Under the pieces are notes generated by a model that was not told the DNA's origin, searched no databases, and was given only the letters and a program-made list of their open reading frames with translations. Source: Sterolibacterium sp. (GTDB lineage Bacteria > Pseudomonadota > Gammaproteobacteria > Burkholderiales > Rhodocyclaceae). Taken from it: DNA of 64,000 bases. Location of the stretch: positions 90,885 through 154,884 of the forward strand of contig JAGOVA010000002.1 in the NCBI GenBank assembly GCA_018061005.1, read 5' to 3'. The position numbers and the translations under genes were made by a program. Positions 1 to 5,268 of this stretch are shown here, in pieces; position 1 is the stretch's first letter; every line of letters starts with the position of its first letter.

Positions 1-804
1 GAGGATTGAAACCTGTCTATTGATGTGCACAAGGGTTCTGCGTGCGGGGTCGCGCCCGCCAGCAATGGCGGGCGAGGATTGAAACATCAGAAATCCCCTC
101 CAATAGCAATGACGTTGAATGGTCGCGCCCGCCAGCAATGGCGGGCGAGGATTGAAACCGCTGGCGGTGGGTGGATGAGGATGTGGCACTGAGTCGCGCC
201 CGCCAGCAATGGCGGGCGAGGATTGAAACATTTGTCAAATACAGATAGCTCATACAAAACGAGTCGCGCCCGCCAGCAATGGCGGGCGAGGATTGAAACT
301 CCGGAGACAACCGAGACCAGCGAGCCTATGAGCAGTCGCGCCCGCCAGCAATGGCGGGCGAGGATTGAAACTCCGGAGACAACCGAGACCAGCGAGCCTA
401 TGAGCAGTCGCGCCCGCCAGCAATGGCGGGCGAGGATTGAAACGTGTACCGCCGAAGGTGCCGCCAGTCCTTATGCCCCGTCGCGCCCGCCAGCAATGGC
501 GGGCGAGGATTGAAACAATAATGACCGATATTGGGATAGCATGAAGTCACATGTCGCGCCCGCCAGCAATGGCGGGCGAGGATTGAAACGCGCAGAAGAA
601 GCCAAGGCAAAGGTCGCCGAAGCCGTCGCGCCCGCCAGCAATGGCGGGCGAGGATTGAAACTTGCGGAACAGTAAATAGACGGCATCCTCACCCACGTCG
701 CGCCCGCCAGCAATGGCGGGCGAGGATTGAAACACTGAGGAATCCCCCCGTGCCGGGTGCAGCGTCTGTCGCGCCCGCCAGCAATGGCGGGCGAGGATTG
801 AAAC
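1..804 (+). CRISPR. CRISPR array, trailer-side part: one partial and 11 full repeats
   Basis: Eleven full 37-bp repeats start at 49, 122, 193, 263, 335, 407, 480, 553, 625, 697 and 768; the last 12 bases of another occupy 1-12. Spacers are 33-36 bp. Each repeat contains a perfect 8-bp hairpin stem (CGCCCGCC / GGCGGGCG, loop AGCAAT) and ends GGATTGAAAC, the usual 5' handle of type I/III crRNAs, so transcription should run left to right, with the leader and youngest spacers left of the window. Spacers 300-334 and 372-406 are identical. No cas gene is present, so the subtype (I-C-like or a III type by repeat end) is open. The right edge does not end in ordinary trailer DNA but runs straight into phage sequence. 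Confidence 0.98.
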
Positions 805-1097
805 AGCCGGGCATCGAGCTGTGTCATAGCCGAAGTCTGGTCGACGATCCACCGCGCCGAACTGGCTAACTGTGTCACGCCGACATAGCCCAGCATGGCG
901 TTTTTAAGCACATCCAACTGACCTGAGACCGACCGGACACCTTGTGCCGCAGAGGTCATTCCGCCAGACATGGCCTCGCCCGCACGCTTGGCATCGACGG
1001 CCAGCTTGCGAAAATCATCGCGTGAAATGCTGACCCCGCCGGTAACCTCCTTACCATCGAAGGTCAGCTTTATCGCAAGATTAACGCCCTGTGCCAT
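805..1097 (-). pseudogene. phage tail tape-measure protein, N-terminal fragment
   Basis: The ATG is at 1097 and about 97 codons are kept, from MAQGVNLAIKLTFDG to TSAMTQLDARL. The polar start, the stretch like 'VRSVSGQLDVLKNAMLG' and the segment leading to SSARWIVDQTSAMT are typical of the first 100 residues of tape-measure proteins, which set tail length and take part in DNA injection. The reading frame then runs into the antisense of the CRISPR repeats, so everything after residue 97 is missing; full proteins are usually over 600 aa. It lies downstream of the DUF1799-like gene, the normal phage order. A second, different tape-measure start lies at 2690-2808. Confidence 0.75.
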
Positions 1098-1114
1098 TGC
1101 CCTATAATCCCCGC

Positions 1115-1297
1115 ATGAACGTCTTGTCCGTATTCGTCATTTCACCTGCCCTCATTGCCTGGTCTCGTGGCAAGCGGGGTGGCTGGCTGATCTTTGGCGC
1201 GCTACTGATGCTGGCAAGCCTGTTTTCTGGTGAAATCCTGAATGCATTGATACTCTGGCTGGCCTGCATGGCCATCGCGCTGCTCAAAAAAACCTGA
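1115..1297 (+). CDS. 60-aa hydrophobic protein antisense to phage tail genes
   Basis: The ATG at 1115 gives MNVLSVFVISPALIAWSRG..., with two likely membrane segments (about residues 2-15 and 25-58) separated by a basic RGKRGG turn. It ends KKT at 1297, two bases before the end of the convergent DUF1799-like gene. A TATAAT hexamer at 1103-1108, only 6 bases before the ATG, suggests a leaderless or very short leader transcript. The frameshifted ORF at 3059 is a clear relative: FVI, RG(K/R), GW and LLSG match in order. Such genes beside tail operons are often morons, expressed from the prophage and serving exclusion or host fitness; function here is unknown. Confidence 0.6.
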   Translation: MNVLSVFVISPALIAWSRGKRGGWLIFGALLMLASLFSGEILNALILWLACMAIALLKKT

Positions 1298-1298
1298 T

Positions 1299-1563
1299 TC
1301 ACGCCGCGCCCATCACCGCCAGCGCTTCATCTTCCATATACCGCAACGCCCGCATCACATCCAGCCGCCGCCGTTTTTTCACCCCGGCAATTTCCAGCGC
1401 CACCGGCAGGCTGGGCAAATCCAGCCCCAGATAACCGCCGCCATTCAGGCCGGCAACGATGCGCCAGTGATTACTCATCACGCACCAGGCATCCCACACA
1501 TCGTGATGCTCCGGCCAGACTTCGACCACCTGCCCATCGTCCTCATCCTCTGCCTGCCGCAGC
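1299..1563 (-). pseudogene. DUF1799-like phage tail assembly protein, C-terminal fragment
   Basis: Reading leftward from 1563, 87 codons give LRQAEDEDDGQVVEVWPEH... to EDEALAVMGAA, stop at 1299. The pattern of an acidic lead, VWPE, a W/GG(G)xxGLD core, LP(x)ALEIAGV, basic residues and a closing RYMEDEALA fits the DUF1799 family, small proteins coded just before the tape-measure gene in lambda-like tail operons. The start codon is lost: the frame continues into the antisense of the degenerate CRISPR repeat at 1564-1600. Its position just upstream of the tape-measure fragment confirms the orientation. Confidence 0.6.
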
Positions 1564-1600
1564 GTCGCGCCCGCCAGCAATGGCGGGCGCGAATTGAAAC
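1564..1600 (+). repeat. isolated degenerate CRISPR repeat
   Basis: This 37-bp copy matches the array repeat except near its 3' end, where GGCGAGGATTGAAAC has become GGCGCGAATTGAAAC (two changes). The hairpin stem is intact. It has the same orientation as the array, 759 bp past the last array repeat, with phage DNA on both sides. Degeneration is typical of the oldest, trailer-end repeat, so this was probably the terminal repeat of the array before phage DNA came between it and the rest. Confidence 0.95.
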
Positions 1601-1713
1601 AATCTTCCGATGTACAGCATCTTGTTGAGAAGAAATGGCCGAAGGATATTGCCCGGCTGAAAGAAGAAGCCGAAGTGCTTGGCGGATTGATAGAGGAGCT
1701 TAAAAATGTCTGA
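1601..1713 (+). pseudogene. C-terminal tail of a phage gene cut by the CRISPR repeat
   Basis: Directly after repeat 1564-1600 an open frame reads SSDVQHLVEKKWPKDIARL..., continues with a charged helix (LKEEAEVLGG) and stops at 1713. It has no start of its own; upstream the frame passes through the repeat, so only the last 37 residues of some phage protein survive. The stop overlaps the next start (ATGTCTGA), normal for tightly packed phage genes. I do not recognise the family. Confidence 0.4.
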
Positions 1714-1771
1714 GATGAATGCAGCAATGGCAGTCCTTGAGGAAGTGCTAGAGCGTGCGCTTGCTGATTGC
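1706..1771 (+). pseudogene. N-terminal piece of a small phage gene
   Basis: The ATG at 1706 overlaps the preceding stop and gives MSEMNAAMAVLEEVLERALADC, a regular amphipathic helix. Past about codon 22 the frame turns into low-complexity, arginine/glycine-rich residues while the neighbouring frame becomes the clearly coding gpF-like protein. This points to a deletion or frameshift joint near 1755-1780. The right edge given is approximate and the function is unknown. Confidence 0.3.
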
Positions 1772-2495
1772 CGTGAAGCAAAAGCATTACCCGCCGCAGA
1801 TTCCGCCGCACTGGGGCTGCCGCTGCCGCGTGGTGGGGGTGGAAACGCCGGAAGATGCAAGCACCCTGGGCGGCGAGCCAGACAAAGCCCTGCCCGAAGG
1901 CTGGCAGGCGGTGGATGCCGAACACAAAGACCCGGCACTGCTGGCGCAAGGCTGGAACTTTGCACCAGGGGCGAACGTGGACACCGCGCTGCGGGAGCTG
2001 GTGGAGAAGAAGCTGATCGACTATCCGCCTGCGATTGCCAAGGCACTGTCGCGCGATCTGAACCGTTACCTGTCTGCCGAGCACCCCCCTGCCTTGTTTG
2101 CCGAGGCCGTATTGGCTGACCGTCAGCTGACCCATGACCAGTGGCTGGGATTCCCGGATAACTTTGATCGCATCCAGCGGGATACGGGGCAGGACGTGAA
2201 AGGGTACATCGGCATTTTGCCCGCGCAAGCCCCGCGCCACGTCATGAACAGCCACCAGTACGATGGCAAAGGGCAACGCCCCGTAACCCCGGAGGACTAC
2301 AACAGTGCCTGGACGGTACTGAACGAGGCCGATGACATCAGGGCGGGCAGCAATGATGGACACAACCATCTGGAGACCATTGTGGCCGTCAAGATGATGG
2401 GGGGCGAAAAATGGCGCGCCGTGTACGAAATACGCCCAGGTCGCAAAACCCGGCTGCTGGCTTTGGTTTCGCTGGTTATAAAAACCGCGCATTGA
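1755..2495 (+). pseudogene. Mu gpF-like head morphogenesis protein, C-terminal part with nuclease-like domain
   Basis: The frame becomes coding around 1765 with HYPPQIPPHWGCRCRV, the cysteine motif near the C-terminus of Mu gpF / SPP1 gp7 head morphogenesis proteins. It is followed by a linker (ALPEGWQAV..., GWNFAPG) and a C-terminal domain with RPVTPEDYNSAWTVLNEAD, HNHLETIVAVKM and WRAVYEIRPGRK, matching the phage-borne barnase/EndoU/ColicinE5-D/RelE-like nuclease domains often fused to gpF. The N-terminal half is missing and an in-frame stop lies at 1749, so it is a fragment joined to an unrelated gene start. A 29-codon frame just after it (2498-2587) may be its continuation after a frameshift. 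Confidence 0.65.
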
Positions 2496-2621
2496 ATATG
2501 AAAGGGGTGAGGCCAGCTGGGGTCGATGTGGCACGAATGCCCCCCGACCATTACGCCCGAAGCGAGTCAGCCTATGGCCTCAATTAGAGCATAGCAACAA
2601 GATCAACACGGAGACAAAACC

Positions 2622-2720
2622 ATGAACATTGAAAAACTGCGGCTGGTGATCGACAACAACCAGATCGCGCTGGATCTGGCCGATGACCGGGCTTGTCCAG
2701 ATTGTCATTCAGCCGGGTAA
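2622..2720 (+). pseudogene. short phage ORF broken at an inverted joint
   Basis: The ATG at 2622, preceded by GGAGAC, gives MNIEKLRLVIDNNQIALDLADD; after codon 22 the reading continues only through antisense tape-measure sequence and stops at 2720. The position just after a gpF-like gene would suit a virion morphogenesis (gpG-like) protein, but the piece is too short to prove it. The joint with the opposite-strand tape-measure fragment lies near 2686-2695. Confidence 0.35.
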
Positions 2721-2808
2721 CTTCATCGCTGATCTGGCGGATTGCATCCTGACTTGACTTTGCGCCATCAACGGATAACTTGACACTGACCCCATTCACT
2801 GCCGCCAT
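2690..2808 (-). pseudogene. second phage tape-measure protein, N-terminal fragment
   Basis: The ATG at 2808 gives MAAVNGVSVKLSVDGAKSSQ... to EVTRLNDNLDK, about 39 codons. The opening resembles the first tape-measure fragment (VNxAIKLTFDG at 1097) but is clearly a different allele, so it comes from another phage or another tail module. The frame loses coding character near 2690, where it abuts the oppositely oriented fragment at 2622. As at 1097, the tape-measure start faces a small plus-strand membrane-protein gene. Confidence 0.5.
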
Positions 2809-2841
2809 GCCCCCGCTCCCTCAACCGATGCCCCGTACACA

Positions 2842-3036
2842 ATGAATGACATCCTGACCATTGCCCTGCTGGGCGGGCTGTTCGCTGCCTTCCCGTCCTT
2901 CCTGCTCTTCTACTACCGCCACAGCATCCCGCTGCCGATGATCTGGGTCGGCATCGTTTGCAGCTGGTCGATGCCCGTCATCGGCTGGTTCGTCGCGCTC
3001 TACATCGCCCTCAAAGACTGGGAGCAGAAAACGTAG
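2842..3036 (+). CDS. 64-aa membrane protein resembling superinfection-immunity (Imm) proteins
   Basis: Starts ATG 2842 (MNDILTIALLGG) and ends KDWEQKT at 3036. There are two membrane segments, about residues 4-24 and 32-58. The second half, with SW, PVIGWFVALYIAL and preceding IPLP, has the helix-GW-helix layout (GWxxxGWxVALxxAL) of the T4 Imm superinfection-immunity family, inner-membrane proteins that stop DNA entry by related phages. It lies divergently beside a tape-measure start, a sensible site for an exclusion moron because tape-measure proteins act in DNA injection. The Imm link is by pattern only. Confidence 0.6.
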   Translation: MNDILTIALLGGLFAAFPSFLLFYYRHSIPLPMIWVGIVCSWSMPVIGWFVALYIALKDWEQKT

Positions 3037-3058
3037 GGCAATTTTTTATACCTCCCGG

Positions 3059-3233
3059 ATGAATGCGTTTGCCATCTTTGTCATTGCCTCCATCCTGGTT
3101 GCCCTGGCGCGGGGGCGAAAAAACGGCTGGATTACCTGCGGCTCATTACTGTCCCTACTATTACTGCTCTCCGGCACACCAGTCATGGCAACCCTGCTTT
3201 TGGGCAGTGTGCCTGGTGGCGGCCTTTGTATAG
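3059..3233 (+). pseudogene. frameshifted relative of the 1115 small membrane protein
   Basis: From ATG 3059 the frame reads MNAFAIFVIASILVALARG..., matching the 60-aa protein at 1115 through the RG-K-GW turn and the LLSG motif. At the CTTTTGGG run (3196-3203) the match jumps frame: with one T fewer the tail would read LLWAVCLVAAFV and stop at 3231-3233, against LILWLACMAIALL in the intact copy. As it stands, the ORF runs on to 3373 with no likeness to anything. The upstream motif TATACCTCCCGGATGAA parallels TATAATCCCCGCATGAA of the other copy. Confidence 0.55.
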
Positions 3234-3275
3234 CAGGCACTGTGGAGCACACGGGCAGCCACTCACGCCCGCCAG

Positions 3276-3506
3276 TTGGGCTTCCTTCCGTCATTATTCG
3301 AGACGGGCAACACGTTGGGTGCCCACCCGGGTCACGTTCCTTGCTTGGTACGGCAACTGCGACAATTGAATGATGCCGCCGACCCTGGCTTCAAGACGTA
3401 CATTGAGGTGGCGACATTGAAAACCAAGGGACATGTGGAGCAAAAGATCGCGGCGGAAGCCAAGGCGTGGATTATCGACAACCGTGAATTCATCATGCAG
3501 ATTTGA
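3276..3506 (+). CDS. hypothetical protein upstream of the DUF2442 gene
   Basis: An open frame of up to 76 codons, possibly starting earlier (after a stop near 3231) or at an internal codon, ends 20 bases before the DUF2442 gene. The last third (VEQKIAAEAKAWIIDNREFI) is a charged helix like the C-terminal end of DUF4160 toxins, the usual partner coded just before DUF2442 antitoxins. The N-terminal part lacks the PPHFH-like motif of that family. It may be a decayed toxin gene or only a phage remnant; I cannot tell. Confidence 0.35.
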   Translation: MGFLPSLFETGNTLGAHPGHVPCLVRQLRQLNDAADPGFKTYIEVATLKTKGHVEQKIAAEAKAWIIDNREFIMQI

Positions 3507-3526
3507 GCAGAACGAGGAGCAAAACG

Positions 3527-3967
3527 ATGAAGGAACTGAATATCAAGACCGTCGCGGTTAGCGACGGGCAGGTAGTGCAAATTACCTGGGCCAGCGGCAA
3601 GCTTGATCGCGTCGACCTCACCGCGCTGATCGCAGACCTGGACGGACTGGCAGTGCTCGACGATATCGGCATATTTGATACCGTTGCCATCGGTGAGGAG
3701 GGTTGGTCGCTGATTTGGACCAATGGCGCGGAAATCGGCACGGATGCGCTCTGGCGCATGGCACGCGAACAGGCTGGCGAAGCGACACCCATTGAGGAAT
3801 TCACGGCCTGGCGCACCCACAATCGACTATCGTTGTCCGATGCCGCCCTGGCGCTTGGCATTACGCGACGCATGGTGGCGTATTACGAAGCTGGTCGCTA
3901 TCTGATTCCACGCATGGTTGGATTGGCCTGCAAGGGCTGGGAGGCGGATCATCATCGTCATGTCTGA
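3527..3967 (+). CDS. DUF2442 protein with C-terminal HTH, antitoxin-like
   Basis: I place the start at ATG 3527, behind AGGAGC at 3515, rather than TTG 3503. Residues 1-85 (MKELNIKTVAVSDGQVVQIT..., VDLTALI, IWTNGAEIGTDALW) show the DUF2442 pattern: a beta-rich start, a VDL segment and a final W-NG(A/L)-(I/L)--D-L(W/Y) motif. Residues 95-146 (FTAWRTHNRLSLSDAALALG, RRMVAYYEAG) form a Cro/C1-type helix-turn-helix. DUF2442 proteins usually serve as antitoxins for DUF4160 toxins; the HTH would allow self-repression. No intact toxin is seen, so this may be a solitary antitoxin. Confidence 0.7.
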   Translation: MKELNIKTVAVSDGQVVQITWASGKLDRVDLTALIADLDGLAVLDDIGIFDTVAIGEEGWSLIWTNGAEIGTDALWRMAREQAGEATPIEEFTAWRTHNRLSLSDAALALGITRRMVAYYEAGRYLIPRMVGLACKGWEADHHRHV

Positions 3968-4007
3968 TACGCCAGACAATAAGGAGCCACGATCAACCGA
4001 CCACCCC

Positions 4008-4042
4008 ATTTTCCAGCCGGTGTCGCTTACCGGCTGGAAAAT
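4008..4042. terminator. hairpin at the 3' end of the MFS gene
   Basis: A 13-bp perfect stem (ATTTTCCAGCCGG with its complement) around a 9-base loop. The stop codon of the minus-strand MFS gene (4027-4029) lies in the loop, so the last codons form one arm. It separates convergent genes and could end transcription from both sides, though the T run is only the four bases within the stem. Confidence 0.55.
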
Positions 4043-5268
4043 GCCAGCAATCCCAGCAGCATGAAGCCGGCCATGCCCAGGGCAAGGTTGAGGGGGGTAT
4101 TCCACAGGAGAGGGGCGATGAGGGCGGCGGTGAGGGCCGCAGTGCTGGTTTGGACGACGCCTTGCACGCTGGAGGCGAGGCCACGTTGTTCGGGGTAGTG
4201 GTCGAGTGCACGCAGTTGCAGGCTGGGCATGGCGAGTGCCATGCCGGTGGTGTAGACGGGCAGCGGCAGGATGGCCCAGGGGAGGGTGGCGGGGGTGATG
4301 AGATTGAGGAGAAGGTTGCTGCTGGCGGCCAGGCTCATCAGGACATAGCCGCAGGCGATGGTACGCCCGGTGCTGAGTCGGCCTGCCAGCCGCCCGGAGA
4401 TGTACGCGCCCAGCATCATGCCGGCGACGCAGGGGATGAACAGCCAGGCGAATTCGCCGGGGGTGAGGCCGATGTGGTCGATGAGGAAGACGGGCGCGGA
4501 GAGGACGTACAAAAACATGCCGCAGAAGTTGCAGGCGAGTGCTGCAGAAAGCCGCATGAACTCTGGATTGGCGAAGACTTTGCGGTAGGCGCGCCCGAGA
4601 TGCCGGGGATGCAGGCTTTGACGTTGTGCCGGGGCGAGGGTTTCGGGCAGGCGTTGCTGCACGGTGAGCCAGAGCAGGCCGGAAAACAGACTGAGGAAGA
4701 CGAAGATGCTTTGCCAGCCAAACAAGTGGTGGAGCGCGCCGCCAAGGATGGGGGCGATGGCGGGGCCGATGGCGAACATCATGCTGATATGGGCCATCAG
4801 CCGTTGGGCGGCGGGGCCGTCGTGCAGGTCGCGCACCACGGCGCGGCCGACGACCATGCCTGCCCCGGCTGACATGCCTTGCAGGGCGCGACCCAGTAGC
4901 AGCAGGTCAAGACTGGGGGCGAACGCGCAGAGCAGTGAGGCCAGGCTGTACACGGCCAGACCGGCGAGGATGACGCGGCGCCGCCCCAACGCATCGGAAA
5001 ACGCGCCATGCCAGAGCATCATGGCGGCAAATGGAACGAGATAGGCGGTCAGCGTTTGCTGGATTTGCAGGGGACTGGCGTGTAGTGCCGCGCCCATCGC
5101 GGGAAAGGCGGGCAGGTAGGTGTCGATGGAGAAGGGGCCCAGCATGGCGAGTGTCGCCAGCAACACGGCCAGCCCGAGGGTTGTTCGGGCTTCGTCTGGG
5201 GCGGGGCTCGCGGCTTGCGGTTTATTCAACGCGCCGCACGTCGACGACGAAATGGTCGGTTTCACCAA
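4027..5268 (-). CDS. Bcr/CflA-type MFS drug exporter
   Basis: A 12-helix major facilitator of the DHA1 Bcr/CflA subfamily, about 400 aa, proton-driven inner-membrane efflux. Visible marks: a first helix ending DTYLPAFPAM, motif A-like FSDALGRRRV between helices 2 and 3, LGRALQGMSAGAG (motif B region) in helix 4, and PILGG (motif C) in helix 5. The ATG at 5268 lies inside the upstream gene; a TTG at 5229 (NKPQAASP...) overlapping its stop is an alternative start and would suit translational coupling. It is the last gene of the run comM - small membrane protein - MFS. Confidence 0.85.
   Translation of the reverse strand: MVKPTISSSTCGALNKPQAASPAPDEARTTLGLAVLLATLAMLGPFSIDTYLPAFPAMGAALHASPLQIQQTLTAYLVPFAAMMLWHGAFSDALGRRRVILAGLAVYSLASLLCAFAPSLDLLLLGRALQGMSAGAGMVVGRAVVRDLHDGPAAQRLMAHISMMFAIGPAIAPILGGALHHLFGWQSIFVFLSLFSGLLWLTVQQRLPETLAPAQRQSLHPRHLGRAYRKVFANPEFMRLSAALACNFCGMFLYVLSAPVFLIDHIGLTPGEFAWLFIPCVAGMMLGAYISGRLAGRLSTGRTIACGYVLMSLAASSNLLLNLITPATLPWAILPLPVYTTGMALAMPSLQLRALDHYPEQRGLASSVQGVVQTSTAALTAALIAPLLWNTPLNLALGMAGFMLLGLLAFSSR

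Follow-up and report, generated by a model that had tools for sequence, protein, structure and literature searches.

Cas1-Cas2 is generally assumed to set spacer length at a constant value of about 35 nt. For type I-C systems a 5' TTC PAM is described in the section of PMC7913775 used here, together with P. aeruginosa spacers that measure 32-37 nt, and the part of PMC6519985 consulted states that Cas4-Cas1-Cas2 of this type seems to process the PAM-proximal end only and leaves the determinant of the distal end open. Recombination between spacers and phage genomes has also been published (Varble 2019 and Watson 2018, both as cited in the excerpted part of PMC8616872), and the same excerpt envisages for solitary repeat units (SRUs) a route of integration via the solitary repeat.

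Here we describe a type I-C array in which 759 bp of phage DNA occupy the position of the last spacer. The array is located at the start of the analyzed window, a stretch of 64,000 nucleotides (G000:C130:90885-154884) from a draft genome with 135 contigs and a completeness of 93%. It starts 24 bases upstream of the window edge and contains 13 repeats (contig positions 90860-92484, window positions -24 to 1600), of which 12 are perfect 37-mers and the 13th is the terminal repeat with two substitutions. A perfect repeat at -24 is split by the window edge, and the leader and cas2 are located upstream, outside the window. Eleven intervals within the window hold ordinary spacers of 33-36 nt each; the adjacent spacers 300-334 and 372-406 are identical, representing a spacer-repeat duplication. 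The insert is far longer than these spacers and than those of related arrays (32-39 nt), it lies in register between two full repeats, and positions 1-4100 contain no N. According to the portion of PMC8047081 considered here, terminal repeats are commonly altered at the 3' end. The coordinates of all features are listed in the table.

Table. Features of the array, the insert and the adjoining region (window coordinates).
Feature	Position	Strand	Evidence or remark
Type I-C CRISPR array, 11 perfect 37-nt repeats and spacers of 33-36 nt	49..804	+	
Perfect repeat, leader-side border of the insert	768..804	+	
Phage tail segment, contiguous, 759 bp, in spacer position	805..1563	+	
Tape-measure gene, first 97 codons, cut at repeat edge	805..1097	-	
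Small divergent ORF, 60 aa, between tape-measure and DUF1799 genes	1115..1297	+	
DUF1799 phage tail gene, 5' part missing at repeat edge	1299..1563	-	PF08809 E 2.7e-17
Terminal repeat	1564..1600	+	substitutions at positions 27 and 29 of 37 (A27C, G29A)
Second phage-type fragment, C-terminal gene end and start of next gene	1601..1734	+	
Minor head protein, C-terminal fragment	1776..2495	+	PHROG 220 E 5.3e-8; 52% aa over 237 to G181
Further phage-type remnant	2692..3199	+	
Tape-measure-like gene start	2692-2808	-	position and start-peptide likeness only
Two small ORFs	2842-3036; 3059-3199	+	
DUF2442 / HTH-like gene	3384..3967	+	DNA identity 75% to G209, 74% to G082

A comparison with two related regions, contig C43 of the same genome and the viral contig L053, showed the nature of the insert. 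Its gene order is repeated in both, and because the same block occurs there in the same order, 805-1563 is one contiguous phage segment. The DUF1799 piece is 91% identical at the amino acid level to its C43 counterpart and matches PHROG 680 (E 2.9e-18), a family labelled 'tape measure' by PHROGs; DUF1799 of L053 was confirmed by profile (E 1.4e-20). The tape-measure piece shows 51% amino acid identity over 97 residues to C43 and 58% over 81 residues to L053. By itself it gives a weak profile score (PHROG 2335, E 0.012), but both relatives are tape-measure proteins (Pfam TMP_3, E 1.5e-53 for L053 and 1.5e-27 for C43). The ORF between the two genes has positional counterparts in L053 and in C43, where the corresponding small ORF shows 37.7% aa identity. 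On the DNA level C43 matches with 94.5% over 255 bp ending at 1563 and with 71% over 143 bp. These identities indicate that the source is a phage related to, and not identical with, the C43 prophage. A six-frame reading of the insert yielded the tail gene parts and the small ORF only, and a profile scan identified neither of the two gene parts as a transposase. An initial sequence-only reading of this DNA had described contiguous phage tail DNA between repeats of the same orientation, a degenerate second repeat and an expected spacer length of 33-36 bp; the gene order in C43 and L053, the two substitutions in 37 positions and the 11 other intervals of the array bear this out.

That reading had also stated that both phage genes are cut to the base at the repeats. 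Truncation at both repeats is confirmed, but the right breakpoint appears less sharply defined. C43 continues after AGC with CGCGCC where the window continues after AGC with GTCGCGCC; using a longer query, the C43 match extends 8 bases into the terminal repeat with a 2-bp gap, and the alignment suggests that the break may have occurred a few bases into the repeat. At the left edge the sole relative is diverged (51% aa). The last 13 bases there are identical to C43, although a match this short is, by itself, no better than chance (E 0.32).

Newly noticed in the present analysis is that phage DNA starts again directly past the terminal repeat, with homology within 11 bp of position 1601 and clearly from 1612. 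The fragment 1601-1734 has a relative in G001:C39 (66.7% over 33 aa) and a weak match to PHROG 5489 (E 0.026); its DNA is 78% identical to G001 over 1632-1734 and 89% identical to G131:C9 over 1621-1657. At the PAM position of the 1601 edge one relative has TTG and the other GGC. The minor head protein encoded further downstream is presumably MuF-like. The ORF 3059-3199 resembles the insert ORF at 1115 (42.6% over 47 aa), and for the gene at 3384 the DUF2442 and HTH_3 matches fall below the Pfam cut-offs. The region 1601-3967 as a whole is a patchwork of mostly phage-type fragments. A search on both strands for more repeat remnants downstream of 1600 gave none that was convincing; the best partial match (12/14 bases, at 3262 and elsewhere) was chance-like, as judged by eye.

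Insert DNA flanked by both repeats had no match among 50,697 phage records. In this phage collection the DUF1799 protein had no match either, and the head fragment had five distant ones. The search of viral contigs returned no DUF1799 relatives, one tape-measure relative and one marginal head-protein match. A collection of genome contigs yielded no relative and no exact 23-mer, and the viral contigs no exact 27-mer. Of the contiguous phage match that had been suggested as a check, the related block in the viral contig L053 is what was obtained, and the phage collection supplied none.

The leader side of the array carries, in this order, cas3, cas7, a DUF433/DUF5615 gene pair, cas4, cas1 and cas2. 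Profile searches detected Cas4c, Cas1c and Cas2c, a Cas3c match ending at profile position 578 of 612 and a Cas7c match starting only at position 45. The cas3 gene abuts the remainder of cas7 (L006 8551-12026, upstream of the window), and since cas7 starts about where cas3 ends, there is no room in the operon for cas5 and cas8. The full type I-C set (cas3, cas5, cas8c, cas7, cas4, cas1, cas2) is therefore incomplete at this locus, with cas5, cas8c and the 5' end of cas7 apparently deleted. It is a degraded I-C locus in which interference is probably dead, while the adaptation genes cas4, cas1 and cas2 look whole by their profile matches. The DUF433/DUF5615 pair between cas7 and cas4 (L006 12056-12735), which we take to be toxin-antitoxin-like, has a parallel in the related genome G172, whose complete operon carries a DUF433 gene at the equivalent position (L078 reverse complement, about 2064-2543).

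The corresponding region was compared with three other genomes of the genus. They contain a single copy of the repeat core (up to 3 mismatches), at the end of a G001 contig (L100; G001:C45:38127-38163), where a truncated cas3 matching the Cas3c profile to position 141 of 612 abuts a single CRISPR repeat. In G001 a gene assigned as metH from its translation is separated by about 150 bp from the counterpart of the gene at 5222, and the cas-array region is therefore absent from that place. Stretches from G002 and G003 contain the counterparts of the transporter and of comM (a name likewise assigned from the translation) together and have no match to the cas-array region.

Long inserts were also looked for in related arrays. 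From the matches listed, 20 array loci with related repeats were taken, the array of G092:C127 being left out; exclusion of L095 (three partial repeats) before the count resulted in 19 loci from 17 genomes of one bacterial family with 738 intervals, one of these loci (L094) having 242 masked bases. Among these loci 735 of the 738 intervals measure 32-39 nt, one measures 16 nt and two are large. The first large interval (L082 6042-7271; G026:C1), in an array of 36 repeats, is a 1,230-bp insertion sequence (IS) encoding a DDE transposase; it seems to have inserted into a spacer by ordinary transposition.

The second large interval (L078 6300-8296; G172:C1) consists of 1,997 bp between perfect repeats and is interval 28 of 29 in an array of 30 repeats, whose other intervals measure 33-38 nt. 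It belongs to a single-contig genome in which the cas operon is complete by profile (Cas3c, Cas5c, Cas8c, Cas7c, Cas4c, Cas1c, Cas2c), which argues against dependence of such inserts on a broken interference module. One reading frame stays open along the whole insert. Remote relatives of its middle part occur in 10 of 259 genomes of the phylum (25-33% identity over the 11 matches listed), and nine of these 11 listed matches lie in frames of 1,986-4,815 aa. Three weak plasmid matches were obtained, one annotated PLxRFG and one LPD38. Two of 101 other genomes match, over 28-38 bp only. The 1,997 bp are probably an internal piece of a large gene from a mobile element. To call it phage DNA goes too far: 14 weak phage records were found at E up to 5, the best with an E value of 1e-4, a phage match at 1e-5 was found neither in the phage records nor in the viral contigs, the PHROG scan was empty and the Pfam scan gave one chance-level match.

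Neither insert is matched (E up to 1e-3) by any of the 735 normal-length spacers taken from the related arrays, and the window array's own spacers have no match to its insert. A possible protospacer of the surveyed spacer L088_13 in L030 shows several mismatches and no TTC. The survey for repeat-bounded inserts whose ends match spacers, as proposed in the sequence-only reading, thus uncovered L078 among the 19 loci and no spacer corresponding to the ends.

If two spacers against the same phage had recombined with the phage genome, a TTC is predicted inside the insert, just 5' of its last 33-36 nt. The trinucleotides 5' of the last 33, 34, 35 and 36 nt of the window insert are ACC, CAC, CCA and ACC, respectively. 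The TTC nearest to the distal edge would give a spacer of 40 nt, a length that occurs in none of the 738 related intervals. PAMs are not absolute, and this result is evidence against a former spacer at the distal edge, not proof. In L078 the nearest TTC would give a terminal spacer of 32 nt, which is below the 33-38 nt of its own array and rare overall (2/738); since 32 nt still falls in the 32-37 nt described for I-C spacers of P. aeruginosa (PMC7913775), L078 alone is not decisive in this respect. The leader-proximal edge is the PAM side both for recombination between two spacers and for an oversized prespacer. Eight tape-measure relatives were inspected at the homologous place, of which L074 had no readable motif. 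TTC was present in two of the other seven; three of the five without it are near-identical Pseudomonas phages, and C43 and L053 have no TTC at this place. The phage relatives had been found with a peptide carrying the lysine that yields TTC, so that the sample is biased towards TTC; a search for the tape-measure motif on the class level gave 0/369. This comparison of relatives is permissive, not probative.

Taking the array, its repeats and the phage genes together, the insert is probably a real and inherited 'giant spacer', a single unit between two CRISPR repeats. As its origin we tentatively favor integration of an untrimmed prespacer by Cas4-Cas1-Cas2, an explanation we rate somewhat short of an even chance. 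Cas4 would cut the leader-proximal end of a phage fragment at a PAM, whereas the PAM-distal end would be left untrimmed and not shortened to 33-36 nt. The type I-C Cas4-Cas1-Cas2 complex would then integrate the long fragment into the array, and repair would duplicate the repeat as with any spacer. No normal crRNA could be produced from such a unit, so it would probably be inert, and near the trailer end it would silence few or no working spacers and could be tolerated; the near-trailer position of both inserts fits such tolerance.

We prefer the untrimmed prespacer because full repeats at both edges need no earlier spacers; a complete 37-nt repeat in register on each side is what Cas1-Cas2 integration leaves behind. 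Moreover, in both inserts TTC is missing at the spacer length of the own array from the distal edge, as expected if this end was never that of a normal spacer. The published type I-C biochemistry (PMC6519985) assigns no factor to trimming of the PAM-distal end, and the locus has kept cas4, cas1 and cas2. Several points count against it. Cas1-Cas2 normally measures about 35 nt, the window cas4 looks whole by profile, L078 has a TTC 32 nt from its distal edge, and the left PAM is unproven, with TTC in only two of seven relatives. The phage DNA flanking the terminal repeat on either side also calls for a second event. According to the part of PMC6519985 consulted, Cas4 of type I-C holds back unprocessed prespacers, and in type V-A, as far as the excerpt of PMC9419969 goes, loss of Cas4 lengthens spacers modestly with the mode still at 29 nt. 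In the open-access literature we found no report of in vivo Cas1-Cas2 integration of 0.8-2 kb. As a broader and more speculative proposal, to which we give slightly less credence than to this origin, type I-C modules may occasionally bank 0.8-2 kb of phage or mobile-element DNA as 'giant spacers', because the PAM-proximal end alone would be measured and cut in this reading; arrays would then be a low-rate site of gene capture, and a single family would already supply two or more independent cases.

The main rival is the explanation put forward in the sequence-only reading, in which two spacers against the same phage recombine with the phage genome and a double crossover with homologies of about 35 bp, similar to lambda Red, replaces the intervening repeats. 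Primed adaptation can place several spacers against one phage side by side, and phage recombinases use homologies of about 35 bp. Such an event gives base-exact edges, and a third spacer could even account for the phage DNA at 1601. With the published precedent, phage DNA actually in spacer position and a terminal spacer of 32 nt conceivable in L078, the proposal has points in its favor, but the predicted distal TTC is absent at 33-36 nt, and no surveyed spacer matches an insert. We consider it rather unlikely, and the aberrant long prespacer, which the same reading had named as its main alternative, fits somewhat better. We reject a Campbell-type event in which an entire phage entered a single spacer and was later partly deleted; both ends would then belong to the same spacer, and they differ.

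Less probable again is an illegitimate or microhomology-mediated fusion of the array end with phage or prophage DNA, followed by prophage decay, so that 805-4000 would be one degraded patchwork. The mixture of fragments in 1601-3200 resembles such a patchwork, and other I-C rearrangements are present in the genus (the cas deletion at this locus and the cas3 truncated into a repeat in G001). The sequence CGCGCC, common to C43 and the repeat start with a 2-bp offset, could have served as microhomology; however, a crossover within it would have removed the first two bases of the repeat, and both are present. In addition, chance would have to preserve intact 37-nt repeats at each edge, and to do so a second time in L078.

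An assembly artefact linking phage and array via the repeat would fit an incomplete draft in many contigs, but we regard it as very improbable: the C43 relative lacks any repeat through which an assembler could have made an overlap, the region is free of N, and the second large foreign insert in a single-contig genome indicates that the phenomenon recurs. Equally remote is a phage with a solitary CRISPR repeat that integrated by recombination with the array; phage DNA does flank the terminal repeat on both sides, but whole-phage integration would not leave an uninterrupted 759-bp segment whose two ends differ, the repeat truncates phage genes on either side, the query with both bordering repeats was without a match in the phage records, and the repeat core occurs once only in the three other genomes of the genus that were compared.

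If full-site integration of 0.8-2 kb occurs in nature, the ruler of the adaptation complex is leaky, and the definition of the PAM-distal end in type I-C becomes directly testable. If recombination between spacers and phage is the route, the locus preserves a record, formed in nature, of phage genes that moved into an array. With either route, long inserts bounded by repeats can be searched for in genome collections, where array-finding programs that restrict spacer length could overlook them. CRISPR immune memory may at times hold extended pieces of invader genes.

Compared with known systems, the locus shares with the IS insertions in arrays of Xanthomonas citri (as described in the excerpt of PMC6889575) and in L082 the presence of a large insert. 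Those elements carry a transposase and are located inside a repeat or a spacer, whereas the window insert contains no transposase and extends from edge to edge. As in the solitary repeat units and mini-arrays of phages (PMC8616872, in the part excerpted), phage DNA adjoins a repeat; in contrast to these units, the phage genes are truncated at the repeat and no phage record with the window repeat was found. Like the spacer-phage recombination of staphylococci (Varble 2019, via the same excerpt), the insert joins phage DNA to an array at spacer boundaries. There, however, CRISPR loci are transferred in transducing particles, whereas here a phage segment lies inside the array, and the PAM test for the second spacer fails in the window. 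Ordinary type I-C acquisition by Cas4-Cas1-Cas2 agrees with the locus in the repeats, the position, the phage source and the full repeats on both sides, and differs from it in length, an ordinary spacer having 33-36 nt and the insert 759 bp.
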